Source of the DNA: Arthrobacter pascens
Lineage (GTDB): Bacteria; Actinomycetota; Actinomycetes; Actinomycetales; Micrococcaceae
Assembly: GCF_030816475.1 (NCBI RefSeq)
Contig: NZ_JAUSXF010000001.1
Location: 372,001-436,000 of the forward strand
Direction of reading: 5' to 3'
DNA length: 64,000 nt
The notes below the pieces were generated by a model. It was not told the origin of the DNA and ran no database searches. It worked only from the letters and a program-made list of their open reading frames with translations. Each line of letters opens with the position of its first letter. Position 1 is the first letter of the stretch. Below, piece by piece: positions 18,730-28,120 of this stretch. The translations under genes and the position numbers were made by a program.

Positions 18730-18763
18730 GCGGACGACGGCGGGAGGTCCCGTCGTCGTCCGC
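18730..18763. terminator. Bidirectional hairpin terminator (GACGACGGCGG family)
   Basis: Arms GCGGACGACGGCGGGA and TCCCGTCGTCGTCCGC pair over 16 bp, with one G-U, around a GG loop. It lies between the end of the plus-strand aldo/keto reductase and the end of the minus-strand small gene, so it may serve both. The same arm sequence recurs at several other operon ends in this window. Confidence 0.7.
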
Positions 18764-21889: not shown

Positions 21890-21984
21890 AGGAAGACTAT
21901 GGCATCAGCCACAGGGCCTGTCAAAGGAACTTGCGAAACTGCCACATTGTGTCGGTTGTGCGAGGGGGCGTAACGCCATTTGAG

Positions 21985-22003
21985 TTAGGTTAGGGTTACC
22001 TAC
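21985..22003 (+). promoter_or_regulatory. DtxR/IdeR-type iron box
   Basis: TTAGGTTAGGGTTACCTAC matches 16 of 19 positions of the actinobacterial iron-regulator consensus TTAGGTTAGSCTAACCTAA. It ends 13 bases before the ATG of the AMP-ligase fusion at 22017, inside its promoter or leader. A bound Fe-DtxR/IdeR would block transcription when iron is sufficient. This is a motif match by eye only; the divergent FadR-type gene starts about 100 bases away and is less likely to be the target. Confidence 0.6.
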
Positions 22004-22016
22004 TAAAGTACTGGCG

Positions 22017-24650
22017 ATGACCATACAGCCAGACTTGGCGGGTGTCTCCTTCGCCGCGGGCCTGGCCAGGTTTGGAGACCGGACCGCTGTTCACTTCAAC
22101 GGCCAGTCGATGAGCTACCGTGACCTCGCCGCCCGGGTGGACGAGATTGTCCACTCCCTGGGAGGCGTGCGTCGGCTTGTTGCCCTCGAGGCGGACAACA
22201 CCCTGCCTTCACTTCTGGTCTACCTTGCCGCGCTGGCCGCCGGGCACCCGTTGCTCATCCTGCCCCCGGGAGGCCAGGCAGCCGAAGCGCTTGTCGCTGC
22301 CTACGATCCGGACGTTGTCGCTCGCGTGACGGATGGCGTTCCCGTGTTGGACGTGCGCCGCGAAGGAACGCGCCATGAGTTGCATCCGGGACTGGCATTG
22401 CTGGTGAATACTTCGGGATCCACCGGCTCGCCGAAGCTGGTGCGCCTCTCCGCGGAGGGTGTCCAGGCCAACGCGGCTGCGATTGCCCGGTACCTTCATC
22501 TGCGTCCAGAGGACAAGGCGGCCACGACGCTTCCCCTGTCCTACTGCTACGGGATGTCCGTGGTGAACAGTCACCTGCTGGCAGGCGCGTCACTGGCGCT
22601 GACTGATACGTCCATAGTGGATCCGTGTTTTTGGGAGCTTGTCCGGGCCGAGGGCGTGACGTCGTTCGCGGCGGTTCCTTACACGTTTGAGCTGCTGGAG
22701 CGGGTGGGATTCGCGGAGATGGAGTTGCCGAGCCTGCGCTACATCACGCAGGCGGGCGGCCGCCTCGATCCGGACCGGGTGCGCGGCTATGCAGAATTGG
22801 GACGGCGCCGCGGCTGGGATTTTTTCGTCATGTACGGGCAGACCGAAGCCACGGCCCGGATGGCGTACCTGCCTCCGGACCTGGCAGCGTTGCACCCGCA
22901 GGCCGTCGGAGTGCCGGTCCCGGGCGGCAGCTTCCGCCTGGAGCCCGTCCCTGGCCTGGATGACTGCGAGCTTGTCTACTCCGGGCGCAACGTGATGCTT
23001 GGCTACGCCGAACGGCCCGAGGACCTCGCGCTGGGGCGCACGGTCCAGGAGCTTCGTACAGGTGACCTGGCACGGTGCACTCCGGAGGGACTGTACGAGA
23101 TCGTGGGACGGCGCAGCCGGTTCGTGAAGATCGTCGGGCTCCGGCTGGACCTTGGCCAGGTGGAGCGGCTCCTTACGGGGCTTGGTGTTTCAGCGGCTGC
23201 GGCCGGCACAGACGAGCGGATTGTGGCAGCTGTTGAAGGCGGCCACGACCTGCCCCTGCTCGCCAAGACGCTCGCGCACGATCTCGGCGTTCCCCGGCGA
23301 ACCATCCAGCTTCAGCCGGTGGAGGCCATCCCGCGCCTGGACAACGGAAAGCCGGACTATCCCGCCGTTCTGGCGCTGGCGGCCGATCATCACGACCTTG
23401 ACGGCGCGGGCCTGGAACCCGGAGCGGATGCGGCCGGACCGGTGGATGATGCGCGGCGCATATTCGCCGAAGTGCTCGAACGCGAGGACGTCGCCGACAC
23501 TGACACCTTCGTCTCCCTGGGCGGCGATTCGCTCTCGTATGTGGCCGCCTCCGTCCGGCTTGAGCGGGCCCTCGGAGGTCTTCCCAACGGCTGGCACCTA
23601 ATGCCGGTCTGCGAGCTCCAGCCCCGTTCCGAAGCCGGTGGCCTGTTGTCGGGAGACACTGCCAGGGGCCGGAACGCCGGAAGGGTGCGGAAGTGGCGCC
23701 AGCGCCTGCTGGCACCGATGGAGACAGGGATTGTGCTGCGTGCCGTGGCCATCGTTTTCATCATCTCCACCCACATCGGGTGGTTTTCCTGGGAGGGTAC
23801 GGCCCACGTGCTCATGGCCGTGGCCGGCTTCAACTTCGCCCGATTCCAACTGGGCGGGACCCGCCGGGGGCGGTTGCGCAGACAACTGAAGACCATTGCC
23901 CGGATAGTCGTGCCGAGTGTTGTTGTCATCGGCTTGGCGTTCGCGGTGACCGACACGTACAGCTGGGCCAATGTCTTCCTGCTCAACGCCGTTCTCGGTC
24001 CGGAGGGATGGAGCGACTTCTCACGCTTCTGGTTCGTGGAAGTGCTGGTTCATATTCTGCTCGGCGTCGCTGCCCTGCTGGCGATACCGGCCGCCGACAA
24101 AGCCCAGCGCAGGTGGCCGTGGGCCTTCCCTCTTGCCATCGTCGGCGCGGACCTGCTGGTGCGCTTCCACATCATTGACCTTCCGTTTCCGGGCCAGGGC
24201 CCCGTGCTGTGGCTGTTCGCCCTGGGATGGGCGGCTGCGGCGTCCCGGACCCTGTGGCACAGGGCCGCCGTGACAGCTATTGCCCTGCTGGCCATTCCGG
24301 GATTGTTCGACGACGAATACCGCAACGCGACCATCCTGGCCGGGGTCATCGTCCTCGTCTGGATCTCGAAACTGCCCGTGCCCCGCGGCCTGCACCGGTT
24401 CACGGCCCTGCTGGCCAGTTCTTCCCTGTACGCGTATGTCACGCACTGGCTCGTCTACCCGCTGTTCGACCAGGCGGGCAAGGGCCTTGCCGTCGCAATA
24501 TCCCTGGCCGTCGGCATCGGTTACTGGGCAGTGGCTACCCGCGCCATGAGCGCAATCGAGCGCCGGCTGGGGGCTTGGCGCCGAAACGCCAGAGGACGAC
24601 GGCGGGAGGTCCCGCCGTCGTCCTCCGGGCCCTTAGCGCTGCAGACCTAG
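22017..24650 (+). CDS. Adenylation-carrier-membrane acyltransferase fusion protein
   Basis: An 877-residue, three-part protein. Residues 1-455 form an adenylating domain: A3 motif NTSGSTGSPK (131-140), A5 YGQTE (273-277), TGDLARC and GRRSRFVK motifs, and the A10 lysine Lys445 in DNGKPDY. Residues about 470-545 form a carrier with LGGDSL; Ser505 would carry phosphopantetheine. From about 570 to 845 there are roughly eight to ten membrane segments, the first with LRAVAIVFIISTHIGWF, the Arg and His pattern of acyltransferase-3 proteins. So one chain could activate an acid, hold it as a thioester and pass it to a membrane acceptor, like DltA, DltC and DltB combined. An iron box lies upstream. The last codons overlap a hairpin. 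Confidence 0.85.
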   Translation: MTIQPDLAGVSFAAGLARFGDRTAVHFNGQSMSYRDLAARVDEIVHSLGGVRRLVALEADNTLPSLLVYLAALAAGHPLLILPPGGQAAEALVAAYDPDVVARVTDGVPVLDVRREGTRHELHPGLALLVNTSGSTGSPKLVRLSAEGVQANAAAIARYLHLRPEDKAATTLPLSYCYGMSVVNSHLLAGASLALTDTSIVDPCFWELVRAEGVTSFAAVPYTFELLERVGFAEMELPSLRYITQAGGRLDPDRVRGYAELGRRRGWDFFVMYGQTEATARMAYLPPDLAALHPQAVGVPVPGGSFRLEPVPGLDDCELVYSGRNVMLGYAERPEDLALGRTVQELRTGDLARCTPEGLYEIVGRRSRFVKIVGLRLDLGQVERLLTGLGVSAAAAGTDERIVAAVEGGHDLPLLAKTLAHDLGVPRRTIQLQPVEAIPRLDNGKPDYPAVLALAADHHDLDGAGLEPGADAAGPVDDARRIFAEVLEREDVADTDTFVSLGGDSLSYVAASVRLERALGGLPNGWHLMPVCELQPRSEAGGLLSGDTARGRNAGRVRKWRQRLLAPMETGIVLRAVAIVFIISTHIGWFSWEGTAHVLMAVAGFNFARFQLGGTRRGRLRRQLKTIARIVVPSVVVIGLAFAVTDTYSWANVFLLNAVLGPEGWSDFSRFWFVEVLVHILLGVAALLAIPAADKAQRRWPWAFPLAIVGADLLVRFHIIDLPFPGQGPVLWLFALGWAAAASRTLWHRAAVTAIALLAIPGLFDDEYRNATILAGVIVLVWISKLPVPRGLHRFTALLASSSLYAYVTHWLVYPLFDQAGKGLAVAISLAVGIGYWAVATRAMSAIERRLGAWRRNARGRRREVPPSSSGPLALQT
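24592..24625. terminator. Hairpin terminator inside the 3' end of the AMP-ligase gene
   Basis: Perfect 16-bp arms GAGGACGACGGCGGGA and TCCCGCCGTCGTCCTC surround a GG loop. The sequence lies in the last 60 bases of the plus-strand coding frame, giving a tail RGRRREVPPSSSGP, and just before the end of the convergent alginate-lyase-like gene. It probably terminates transcripts from both sides. It belongs to the recurring GACGACGGCGG hairpin family of the window. Confidence 0.7.
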
Positions 24651-27600
24651 GAGACCCGGTGCAGGAACTCAACTTCTGCAATGTTCACGTGGCCGCTGTG
24701 CTCGTCGAGCACCCGGACCTGACCAAAGTCGGCCCGCTGCGGGAGCGAGAACGTGTACCAGTTGGCGGCCGACATGCCCGTGATGGTCATGAACGTCTGC
24801 CACGTTGCTCCGCCGTCGTTGGAGCCCTGGATAACGGTCCCGTTGCCGCGCGCGATCTGGTCCGAGCGCGGGTAGACACGCACCATGTCGGCGACGATCC
24901 GGGTGCCATCGGTGGGATTGACCGTGACCCAGCCGTTGTTCGTTGTGGTGTCAGTGGCAGTCGCAGTGTTTTGGTCAAACATACGCCAGCCGTTCGCCTG
25001 CGTGGTGCCTGTTCCAGGCCATGCCCAGGTGGAGGCGTTCACCCAGCCCTGTGCGACAGGCGTGCGCTGGATCGCGGTGTTCCAGAGGGCAAGCCGGCTA
25101 CCGTCCGTTGTGGCGGTGAGAGTCGCCCCGGACTTCCCTGAGGCGGTGCGGTAGTCCAGGCTGAACTGCACGTCCCGGCCGTACTCGACGTCGACGGGCA
25201 GCACGGCACTGGCCTTCCAGTGGATCCCGTCGGCGGACGTGGCAGCAGCGGCCGCGCCCTCGACGACGACGTTCAGCGATGCCAGCGGCTCAGTGGCGAC
25301 GGCGTCGAGAGTGACAGTGTCCCCGTTGGTGGCCAGACCCTTGTTCGCGTTGGAGGTTGAGATGGTCAGCGCGGAAATCGCATTGGCCACTTCGAACCTC
25401 TGGCCATGGATCCGGAATTCGCTGAAAGACGAGATGCCGGGGTAGGCCGGGTCTGTCGCCACACCCGGGTGGTCCACTTGGACCTTCAGGTAGCGGAACG
25501 TCTGGCCTTTCACCTCGGCGCGCACGGGGATGGTCTCCATCGCGAAGCCGATGGCCGTCGTGTTGGTGGTTTCCCGTTCAGTGAGCAGGGTCCAGGTCCG
25601 TCCGTCACGGGAGCCATAGACGTTGGCGCCCTGGGAGCGGTTCGCGAAGTTGTACCGGGCCTGAAGGCCGAACGAATCAGCGGAGACCTGGTAGCCCTGG
25701 CTGAAGTCCAGCGTGAACGGTGCCCGCAAGTCTCCGGTCGTCGTGTTGAAGTCTCCGTCCATGAGGTTCCGCGGCTGGATACTGGTCGGGTTCGGCGTGA
25801 CCAGGCCGCGGTAGTCGATCGATCCGTCGTCGGCCACCCGCGGTGTCAGGAGCTTGAGCCCTGCAACCGCAGCCTGGAGGCGCACAAGCTCCGCGAGGTA
25901 GCCGGCGTCGTCGGCCGTCTGCATGGCTGACGTGACTTCCTTCCGGACAGCGTCGAAAGCCGCGAACGACGGCGACTCGTACACCGCGTTCGGATCGAAG
26001 CCTTTCAGTGCGGCGTCCAAGGCTGCCTGCCTGTTGGCGGCCACCACTACGGTGACGGGACGGGTCGCGACGGTGGTGCCGTCGTCGGCCACGACCAGGA
26101 AGGTGACCGTAGCCACCTCTGCTGCGGTCGGCTTCCACGTAAGCTGGGCGGTCGCGGAGTCGAGGCTGGCACCGGCCGGCAGGCCTACGCCCGCATACTT
26201 GAGCACCTCACCGGGAGCGTCGGTGGCTGCGAGTGAGCGTGTCAGGTCCGCCCCGGCGACAGCGATGATCGGGGTGGTCACATCGGCAGGGAACTGCGGT
26301 GGCGTCAACTGGCTCTTGGCCTCAAGGTTGACGTAGTCGAAGTCCGCCCGGACGTTGGCAGTCCCAAGGACGGTGAAATATGCAAGGTTTTCACCGCCCA
26401 GGTCCTTGCCTGCCAGTTTCTCCGCGTCAACGTCGTAGGTGACATAGCGCCACTCGTTGCCCGTGTCGGGCAGCGGGACCTCCAGCCGATTTGCCGGGTC
26501 CTTCCCGATCGCGAGCGTTGCCGGCCCGTTCGTCCGGTACTGTACTCCGACCGGACTGTAGCCGGTACGGCTGGGATACATGAGCGTGCGCACAGCGATG
26601 GTGTTGCCCTTCTTGGACGCGTCGACGCGCACGAAGGTCCGGTCGTCCTCCGTCATGACTTTCGAGTGCGTGTCCATTGCAGAGCTGCGGGTCTCGATCT
26701 GGACCTTCGCGTCAGTAGCCGCGGGCAGGGTCTGGCCCGCGAGCTGTGGTGGGAGAGACAGCCAGAACTCAGGGCTGTAGTCCGGGTTGCTGTTCCAGAA
26801 GTTGTACAGCCCTGTGCCCCAGTAGAACTCGGGGCCGTCGCCTTTGGAGTGCAGTTCGGCCACATGGGGCGCCTCCTTCTCCACGTCCACCCCGAGGTCG
26901 TATTTGTAGACGTTGTACAGCTCGTTGACGGGATCGTACATGCGGCCGCGGTAGGCCTCGGAAATTGATCCGGGCCCGCCTGTGGTGTCGATCCAGGGAG
27001 TCTCGTAGCCCAGCATGTAGCCCGTGAATGCGTCCGCAGCCTTGAGGAGGCGGTCACCGAGGAAATTGTAGGGGGAGACTGCATCCGAAGCCGAGGAGAC
27101 GGTGCCCGCCTTCGGATCCACCTTCGTCCCCTGCACCGTCAGGAAGCGGGCCAGGGCGCCGGTGGTGTCAATCCCGTCCCAGGCGTGGGCCTGGTCGCGG
27201 CCCATCTCCTGGTGCTGGACGAAATCGTAGCCATAGGTGTTGAGGGGATCGTCCTTGGAGATCAGCGGGAATTGAGCAGCGATAGAGCCGTTTTGTTCGG
27301 GACGGGATGTCGTGGCGTTGACGGTGTACCACTCCACTGCCTCGTTGTACCGGTCACGGTTGCTCGTGAAGATGTACCCTGCGATCGCGCCGATCAGCGG
27401 ATAGGTGTGCTGGTTCAGGTAGCGCCAGTTGGTGTGCAGGAACGTTTCGGTCATAGGGACGATGAGGTTGGTGCTCAGCTTAGTGGTGTCCTGGTCGTTC
27501 CAGTGCAGGTCATAGGCGGTATAGCCGTCGGGGACGCTTGTGGCCCGGAAAAGCTCGGCCGCGGCGAGTAGCCGGTAGAGCGGCACGCCCGAGTGGATGT

Positions 27601-28120
27601 GCGCATCCGGGTAATACGCGTACTTGGCCGGGTCCATGTTGCTCCAGGTCCTGATCAGCCGCATGCCGTTTTCCCGGTACACGGGGTCGCCCGTGATGAC
27701 GTAGAGAACTGCCTGCGTGTAGGCGCCGAAGGCGTCCCGGATGAGCTTGCTCTCGACACCCTGGGAGTTGAACGCTGTGGTTCCCGGCAGATCGGGGACA
27801 CTGCTGGCATTGGAGGAGCGGAAGTCCTTCGCGGCGAAGGGCGTCTTTGCCATGGCGTCGTAGTAGCTCTTCCACGGTTCGGTGCCGGCTTTGACCATGT
27901 CCCTGGCGTTGCGAAGGCTCGCCGCGGTCACCCCGATGCCCGGATGGGCAAAGCCGCTCGCATCCACGCTCTCGGTGATGGTCACGTCCTGGCCGGTATC
28001 GGCCACGGCCGGGGTGGCGCTCCCCGGCAGGGCGATGCCCCCTGCCGGGGCCACGAGGGCAACGGCTGCGGCAAGCCCCAGCACGCGGGCCCATCGCCTC
28101 ATCATTGAAGCTTCTTTCAT
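24647..28120 (-). CDS. Secreted alginate-lyase-like polysaccharide enzyme with carbohydrate-binding domains
   Basis: A 1157-residue exported protein. The first 41 residues are a signal peptide ending PAVADT. Residues about 55-400 match an alginate lyase type domain (HPGIGVTAASLRNARDMVK; active-site-like NQHTYP near 240 and EMGRDQAHAWDG near 309). After a beta-rich region at 470-615 come an Ig-like stretch (about 625-710), a discoidin-like domain (about 775-925), a second Ig-like part and a C-terminal F5/8-type carbohydrate-binding domain (about 1020-1157). It starts at ATG 28120 behind AGGAGG. Two palindromic operators lie 185-230 bases upstream. The real substrate may be another uronic-acid polymer. 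Confidence 0.8.
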   Translation of the reverse strand: MKEASMMRRWARVLGLAAAVALVAPAGGIALPGSATPAVADTGQDVTITESVDASGFAHPGIGVTAASLRNARDMVKAGTEPWKSYYDAMAKTPFAAKDFRSSNASSVPDLPGTTAFNSQGVESKLIRDAFGAYTQAVLYVITGDPVYRENGMRLIRTWSNMDPAKYAYYPDAHIHSGVPLYRLLAAAELFRATSVPDGYTAYDLHWNDQDTTKLSTNLIVPMTETFLHTNWRYLNQHTYPLIGAIAGYIFTSNRDRYNEAVEWYTVNATTSRPEQNGSIAAQFPLISKDDPLNTYGYDFVQHQEMGRDQAHAWDGIDTTGALARFLTVQGTKVDPKAGTVSSASDAVSPYNFLGDRLLKAADAFTGYMLGYETPWIDTTGGPGSISEAYRGRMYDPVNELYNVYKYDLGVDVEKEAPHVAELHSKGDGPEFYWGTGLYNFWNSNPDYSPEFWLSLPPQLAGQTLPAATDAKVQIETRSSAMDTHSKVMTEDDRTFVRVDASKKGNTIAVRTLMYPSRTGYSPVGVQYRTNGPATLAIGKDPANRLEVPLPDTGNEWRYVTYDVDAEKLAGKDLGGENLAYFTVLGTANVRADFDYVNLEAKSQLTPPQFPADVTTPIIAVAGADLTRSLAATDAPGEVLKYAGVGLPAGASLDSATAQLTWKPTAAEVATVTFLVVADDGTTVATRPVTVVVAANRQAALDAALKGFDPNAVYESPSFAAFDAVRKEVTSAMQTADDAGYLAELVRLQAAVAGLKLLTPRVADDGSIDYRGLVTPNPTSIQPRNLMDGDFNTTTGDLRAPFTLDFSQGYQVSADSFGLQARYNFANRSQGANVYGSRDGRTWTLLTERETTNTTAIGFAMETIPVRAEVKGQTFRYLKVQVDHPGVATDPAYPGISSFSEFRIHGQRFEVANAISALTISTSNANKGLATNGDTVTLDAVATEPLASLNVVVEGAAAAATSADGIHWKASAVLPVDVEYGRDVQFSLDYRTASGKSGATLTATTDGSRLALWNTAIQRTPVAQGWVNASTWAWPGTGTTQANGWRMFDQNTATATDTTTNNGWVTVNPTDGTRIVADMVRVYPRSDQIARGNGTVIQGSNDGGATWQTFMTITGMSAANWYTFSLPQRADFGQVRVLDEHSGHVNIAEVEFLHRVS

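Follow-up and report, generated by a model that had tools for sequence, protein, structure and literature searches.

A 64,000-nucleotide stretch of the Arthrobacter pascens genome (the window; contig NZ_JAUSXF010000001.1, positions 372,001 to 436,000) contains a gene for an 877-residue protein in which an adenylation (A) domain, a phosphopantetheine carrier domain, and an AT3-type membrane acyltransferase domain are joined in one chain. It is preceded by a candidate binding site (iron box) of the DtxR/IdeR type. The main features of the locus are, in window coordinates:

21980..21985, plus strand: -35-like hexamer TTGAGT, seen in the sequence and also preceding the box in loci L174-L180
21985..22003, plus strand: DtxR/IdeR-type iron box TTAGGTTAGGGTTACCTAC, a 16/19 consensus match within the 18-bp promoter spacer
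22004..22009, plus strand: -10-like hexamer TAAAGT, seen in the sequence
22017..24650, plus strand: adenylation/carrier/AT3 membrane acyltransferase gene, an open reading frame of 877 amino acids with an ATG start
22017..23396, plus strand: adenylation domain, residues 1-460 (Pfam profile; K445 and R281 invariant)
23439..23606, plus strand: phosphopantetheine carrier domain, residues ~475-530, with Ser505 (Pfam profile, alignment)
23661..24611, plus strand: AT3/transmembrane acyltransferase domain, residues 549-865, with R575-x10-H586 and R616xxR619 (profile, motifs, structure comparison)

The first-pass annotation of this DNA had described a single chain with adenylation, carrier, and AT3-like membrane parts, and the Pfam search bears this out, with matches to all three domains: AMP-binding at 133.4 bits, PP-binding at 27.8 bits (residues 480-520, cut-off 20.8), and Acyl_transf_3 at 34.4 bits (residues 573-827, cut-off 31). 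Among seven scanned relatives, three are above the Acyl_transf_3 cut-off, three are below it, and one is unlisted. The motifs noted earlier, NTSGSTGSPK, YGQTE, Lys445, and Ser505 in GGDSL, are all present in the translation. In an alignment of 65 rows (the window protein and 64 of the 80 named loci introduced below), K445, S505, and R281 are invariant, as are R575, H586, and R619 of the membrane part, and R616 is found in 60 rows. R-X10-H and RXXR are given as motifs of the AT3 family (PF01757) in the accessible part of PMC9833829. One of two structural comparisons made with the membrane part gave the transmembrane acyltransferase HGSNAT as its top match, at 12% identity; Foldseek against the PDB yielded no matches for this part at E ≤ 0.001. 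No MBOAT domain of the DltB type was found, since Pfam at E ≤ 1 lists AMP-binding, PP-binding, and Acyl_transf_3 only. Thus the suggested likeness to the Dlt system or to a non-ribosomal peptide synthetase (NRPS) is supported for activation, carrier, and transfer in one chain and fails for the membrane part, which is AT3 and not the MBOAT type of DltB. The genome contains two genes of the phosphopantetheinyl transferase family, one of them within a 225-residue open frame.

The A domain is probably an activator of a carboxylic acid other than an alpha-amino acid, because the position that we take, by hand mapping to GrsA numbering, to be equivalent to the alpha-amino acid Asp (Asp235) is occupied by Cys177. 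For the same reason a loading module for D-alanine or an ordinary amino acid, implied by the earlier comparison, is unlikely. By the same mapping, Arg281 presumably corresponds to pocket position 331 and may bind a second carboxylate. The protein scores 124.6 bits with TIGR01733, below the cut-off of 317.4. The structural matches of the A domain mix enzymes for aryl, fatty, malonyl, succinylbenzoate, and amino acid substrates within about 2 Z units, and therefore assign no specific acid to it. The sequence YGQTEATAR or a near variant occurs in five stand-alone A-domain relatives. Three of these five, in L253-L255, adjoin acyl carrier and glycosyltransferase genes, their other neighbors being reductases and MaoC-like and LuxE-like proteins (translations read by eye), which hints at small acids destined for glycans. 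These three loci, L253, L254, and L255, with their acyl carrier protein, reductase or MaoC-like, LuxE-like, and glycosyltransferase genes, are possibly unexplored clusters for acyl-decorated surface glycans in their own right.

The 16/19 box proposed in the first-pass annotation lies at 21985-22003; the second-best site within the window matches at 12/19, and the top scores in five Markov-made windows are 12-13. The 19-bp DtxR consensus, TTAGGTTAG(G/C)CTAACCTAA, is printed in PMC1382209 on C. glutamicum, whose accessible text also places verified DtxR sites inside the deduced promoters of three genes. Since the box fills the spacer between the -35-like and -10-like hexamers, a DtxR-family repressor, for which the genome has two candidate genes, should keep the promoter shut under plentiful iron, a prediction supported by the comparisons below. 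The start codon is 13 nt downstream of the box, and judging from this spacing the transcript is likely leaderless.

Could the box be a chance match before a gene with no role in iron metabolism? It has three mismatches to the consensus, and the genome-wide search was no richer than its control: 16 and 21 matches were obtained with the reversed pattern, as against 8 and 5 with the pattern itself, and therefore single-strand matches are likely noise. Sites of at least 16/19 are expected by chance at about 0.17 per 4.68 Mb, given the base composition. In the pattern search allowing up to two mismatches, TTAGGTTAGGGTTACCTAC is the sole one-mismatch site. Two further, near-palindromic sites match on both strands; the first lies where a SIP/FAD reductase gene begins, and the second precedes an SfuA-type ferric importer operon. 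A chance origin is nevertheless highly improbable in view of the conservation of the box across genera against controls, the linkage of the gene to ferric importers, and the observations in α-proteobacteria, all given below.

Relatives were collected from named genomes with tblastn (E ≤ 1e-3), the best 80 of at least 585 encoded relatives being kept; A-domain-only relatives are possible among the 585. A box of at least 14/19 is present upstream in 61 of 79 named loci (L252 is too short), versus 18 of the 2824 control windows taken from these loci. Such boxes also precede the gene in 26/30 genus loci, 25/28 class-level loci, and 18/26 family-level loci. In eight of the 18 named loci without the box, fbpA precedes the gene on the same strand, and six of these eight have a box of at least 14 before fbpA; the remaining ten exceptions are degenerate or unexplained. 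The FbpA genes of the named loci are themselves preceded by such a box in 36 of 41 cases, divergent pairs sharing one box (both strands of ~480 bases scanned, with no control). The iron control suspected earlier is thus supported by conservation of the site across genera.

The strongest clue to function is the linkage to ferric ABC importers. A substrate-binding protein (SBP) of the FbpA/SfuA type is encoded within 3 kb of the gene in 40 of the 80 named loci (tblastn), many of them from Streptomyces and sharing descent. The arrangement varies: FbpA is divergent in 26 of the 40, upstream on the same strand in ten, downstream on the same strand in two, and downstream on the opposite strand in two. 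In an unselected clustering of the neighbors of all 80 loci, with genes called by a simple codon-score caller and 16 families ranked by the genera they span, the first three places go to the SBP, permease, and ATPase families (in 41, 27, and 20 loci), and the next family reaches six loci; these three families of the FbpA/SfuA-type transporter are the only ones recurring beside the gene across many genera. In the other samples, FbpA is within 3 kb in 25/40 class loci, 2/20 genus loci, and 0/3 α-proteobacterial loci (tblastn). Of 47 class and plasmid loci supplied for clustering, the gene was called in 43, and in 29 of these the FbpA family is at most four genes away. On annotated plasmids of Rhodococcus opacus, R. 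fascians, R. gordoniae, and Mycolicibacterium chubuense the gene is adjacent to three iron ABC transporter genes. On a FastTree tree (L234 and L239 omitted, eight solo rows with short flanks unlabelled, and a long-branch warning for L126, L129, and L229) the FbpABC linkage requires eight changes, at least six of them on starred branches. The FbpA proteins linked to the gene fall into two subclasses, SfuA-type ones and a divergent group that shares 30-32% identity with them. The divergent form is the sole FbpA found in G025, G057, and G094, where it is encoded inside the gene's own cluster, and in G068 and G080 the gene is located about 2.8 kb downstream of an SfuA-type gene. Together, the gene linkage supports a role for this enzyme in the service of FbpA/SfuA-type ferric ABC importers.

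In A. pascens itself the gene stands alone, with no Fbp gene in the 64-kb window. The SfuA-type operon of this genome is at C1:3714 kb under its own box, and its SBP matches YfuA/SfuA at ~1e-139. Within the genus, FbpA was found in 55/55 carriers of the gene versus 41/46 non-carriers (Fisher p 0.017, with no correction for relatedness); of the five non-carriers in which FbpA is missing, one is a genome of 68% completeness. As a separate observation, in L135, L137, L139, and L140 the gene is near an SBP that clusters with the annotated zinc SBP of L130, in addition to ferric importer genes, which may be plain genus synteny.

The tight linkage to the SBP gene would also fit acylation of the transporter itself, for example with the FbpA lipoprotein or some other importer protein in the membrane as acceptor. 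We regard this as very unlikely, as 41 of the 46 genus genomes that lack the gene keep FbpA relatives, and the AT3 acceptors named in the accessible part of PMC9833829 are carbohydrates.

The gene was found in 55 of 101 sampled genomes of the genus (a 56th match, in G031, at 34% and covering the A-domain part only, was excluded); in four of the carriers (G030, G036, G092, and G097) it is in pieces only. G009, G013, G040, and G096 carry the gene twice at separate places, or once in full with fragments elsewhere. Multiple and broken copies of this kind fit a mobile gene that its hosts can do without. Across the class, a match at E ≤ 1e-40 is present in 71 of 394 genomes, which represent 28 of 137 sampled genera; in five of the 71 (G179, G194, G230, G260, and G414) it covers the A domain only. 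No neighbor family occurs in more than three of 21 loci (20 sampled genus loci and the window), although a few locus pairs share synteny, and plasmid-borne copies exist, one on a plasmid typed conjugative. Because of the lack of shared neighbors and the plasmid copies, the gene appears within the genus to be mostly a solo one that moves together with its own box.

The predominance of solo copies in the genus, together with the glycosyltransferases and acyl carriers adjoining stand-alone A domains with a similar YGQTEA motif and the diverse carbohydrates that AT3 proteins are described as acylating (PMC9833829, in part), could instead point to envelope remodelling under iron starvation. A glycan, lipid, or wall polymer would then be acylated, changing charge or permeability, and the FbpABC link would reflect shared regulation only. 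Shared regulation leaves unexplained the repeated FbpABC linkage, its varied arrangements, and the two FbpA subclasses involved; we consider this alternative unlikely, albeit less so than the others weighed here.

A siderophore was among the acylation targets offered in the first-pass annotation; a polymer or a lipid, the other targets named there, may still be the acceptor. Iron control and the SIP-family reductase under another box would agree with the acylation of a conventional siderophore made elsewhere in the genome. This is quite unlikely, because the genome (G000, 99.9% complete) has neither an NRPS condensation domain nor an IucA/IucC synthetase at E ≤ 0.001. Its N-hydroxylase family matches are partial, and the same profile matches 12 of 14 control genomes. 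No siderophore-synthesis family is among the recurrent neighbors listed for the 80 named loci. A siderophore substrate was also sought by co-occurrence with IucA/IucC in the genus, and no association was observed (35/55 carriers versus 26/46 non-carriers, p 0.54).

Relatives at 32-39% identity are encoded outside Actinomycetes, on replicons of Rhizobium, Sinorhizobium, Shinella, Phyllobacterium, and Leisingera, and cover 75-94% of the query in the rows seen. In five of nine α-proteobacterial upstream regions, which are not independent since several come from close kin, a TGA-N9-TCA element lies inside a TTGAC core promoter; the control, counted anywhere in the window, is 115/1800. Of the other four, one has this element only at -121 and three lack it, one of these three having half-sites N8 apart (start codon guessed). 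TGA-N9-TCA is the form of the RirA box according to the accessible parts of PMC6386902 and PMC8822346. By gene order alone (ndk = SMc00595; order in L131) the probable Sinorhizobium meliloti homolog is SMc00592. It appears in Table 2 of PMC2848241, seen in part, as a hypothetical transmembrane protein with log2 values of -0.44, 1.47, 1.30, and -0.23 (significance marks not readable), a pattern resembling that of the hmu, fhuF/fhuP, and exb genes of the same table. Both the RirA-type boxes and this expression argue against a fortuitous match in front of the A. pascens gene.

At the 3' end of the gene one further feature was observed:

24592..24625, no strand assigned: 15-bp perfect hairpin over the last codons, seen in the sequence

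From its position it is likely a bidirectional terminator shared with the convergent gene (24647-28120, minus strand, 1157 amino acids). The last codons of the acyltransferase run through the hairpin and its stop overlaps the end of that gene, raising the possibility that the C-terminal tail was acquired recently. The palindrome around ACGGCGGGAGGTCCCGNCGT recurs in the window at ~18732-18762, and with at most one mismatch is found at eight distinct places in the genome, seven of them between 292 and 397 kb on C1 and the eighth at 1958 kb, versus zero for its reversed control; the set resembles either a local family of bidirectional terminators or a small repeat.

Taking together the domains, the invariant motif residues, the conserved box, and the linkage to ferric import, all seen by comparison of sequences, we propose, with confidence somewhat above even, that the protein takes part in acquiring ferric iron when iron is scarce. 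It would be a transmembrane acyltransferase that loads itself and makes, outside the cytoplasm, an Fe(III) ligand or ligand site for uptake by FbpABC. Under plentiful iron, a DtxR-family repressor bound to the spacer box would shut the promoter. Once expressed, the A domain would adenylate a small non-alpha-amino carboxylic acid and load it onto the phosphopantetheine of its own carrier at Ser505, and the AT3 domain (R575/H586) would carry the acyl group through the membrane to an acceptor at the outer face. With the fused carrier as donor, acyl-CoA and a free carrier protein would both be dispensable. The predicted product, whether an acyl conjugate set free outside the cell or a site anchored in membrane or wall, would yield its iron to FbpA. 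As the gene appears to work alone from Streptomyces to rhizobia, both the acid and the acceptor are expected to be widespread metabolites or components common to all cell envelopes; candidates are soluble metabolites, lipids, and peptidoglycan units.

FbpA-type proteins bind bare ferric iron, and it is not obvious how this iron is presented to them in Gram-positive soil bacteria without transferrin receptors or siderophores. An iron-controlled enzyme physically linked to ferric importers in many genera points to an unstudied way of gathering iron. More tentatively, and with odds that we place below even, there may be a portable one-gene class of iron acquisition systems, making a ligand for FbpA-type importers from common metabolites under DtxR-type boxes in Actinomycetes and RirA-type boxes in rhizobia. 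If so, one gene would stand in for both the siderophore pathway, with its many genes, and the dedicated receptor, and it would have come under different iron regulators in different phyla.

Among known systems, D-alanylation of teichoic acids by DltA, DltC, DltB, and DltD is carried out by four proteins with an MBOAT transferase and is not an iron system. The order of steps is alike, from adenylation and carrier loading to a membrane acyltransferase that acylates outside the cell; here, however, there is one chain with an AT3 domain, and by hand mapping the alpha-amino acid Asp is absent. AT3 acyltransferases such as OafB and OatA share the R-X10-H and RXXR motifs and the multi-helix membrane domain. 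As described in the accessible part of PMC9833829, AT3 proteins occur on their own or joined to SGNH or other domains, and acetyl-CoA is the proposed donor. In the A. pascens protein the fused A and carrier domains should supply the acyl group, which would be a donor route other than acyl-CoA. Human HGSNAT uses acetyl-CoA as donor and heparan sulfate as acceptor. Aas-type acyl-ACP synthetase/phospholipid acyltransferases (PRK06814, PRK08633, and PRK08043) likewise fuse an adenylating enzyme to an acyltransferase, and these models match the A domain, all far below their cut-offs; their acyltransferase is of the PlsC type, with neither AT3 nor an iron box. NRPS and NRPS-independent siderophore synthetases share iron control and A and carrier domains, but neither a condensation domain nor IucA/IucC was found in this genome. 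The FbpABC/SfuABC/HitABC importers are the recurrent partners of the gene, and we know of no acyltransferase linked to the described systems. The main text of two C. glutamicum DtxR papers (PMC1382209 and PMC12327846), as far as accessible, contains neither the term acyltransferase nor AMP-binding, and targeted searches of an open-licence library, judged by titles and abstract openings, yielded no description of this fusion with iron control and a tie to FbpABC. The parts are of known kinds, and within that scope it is their fusion, their iron control, and their tie to FbpABC that appear to be new.
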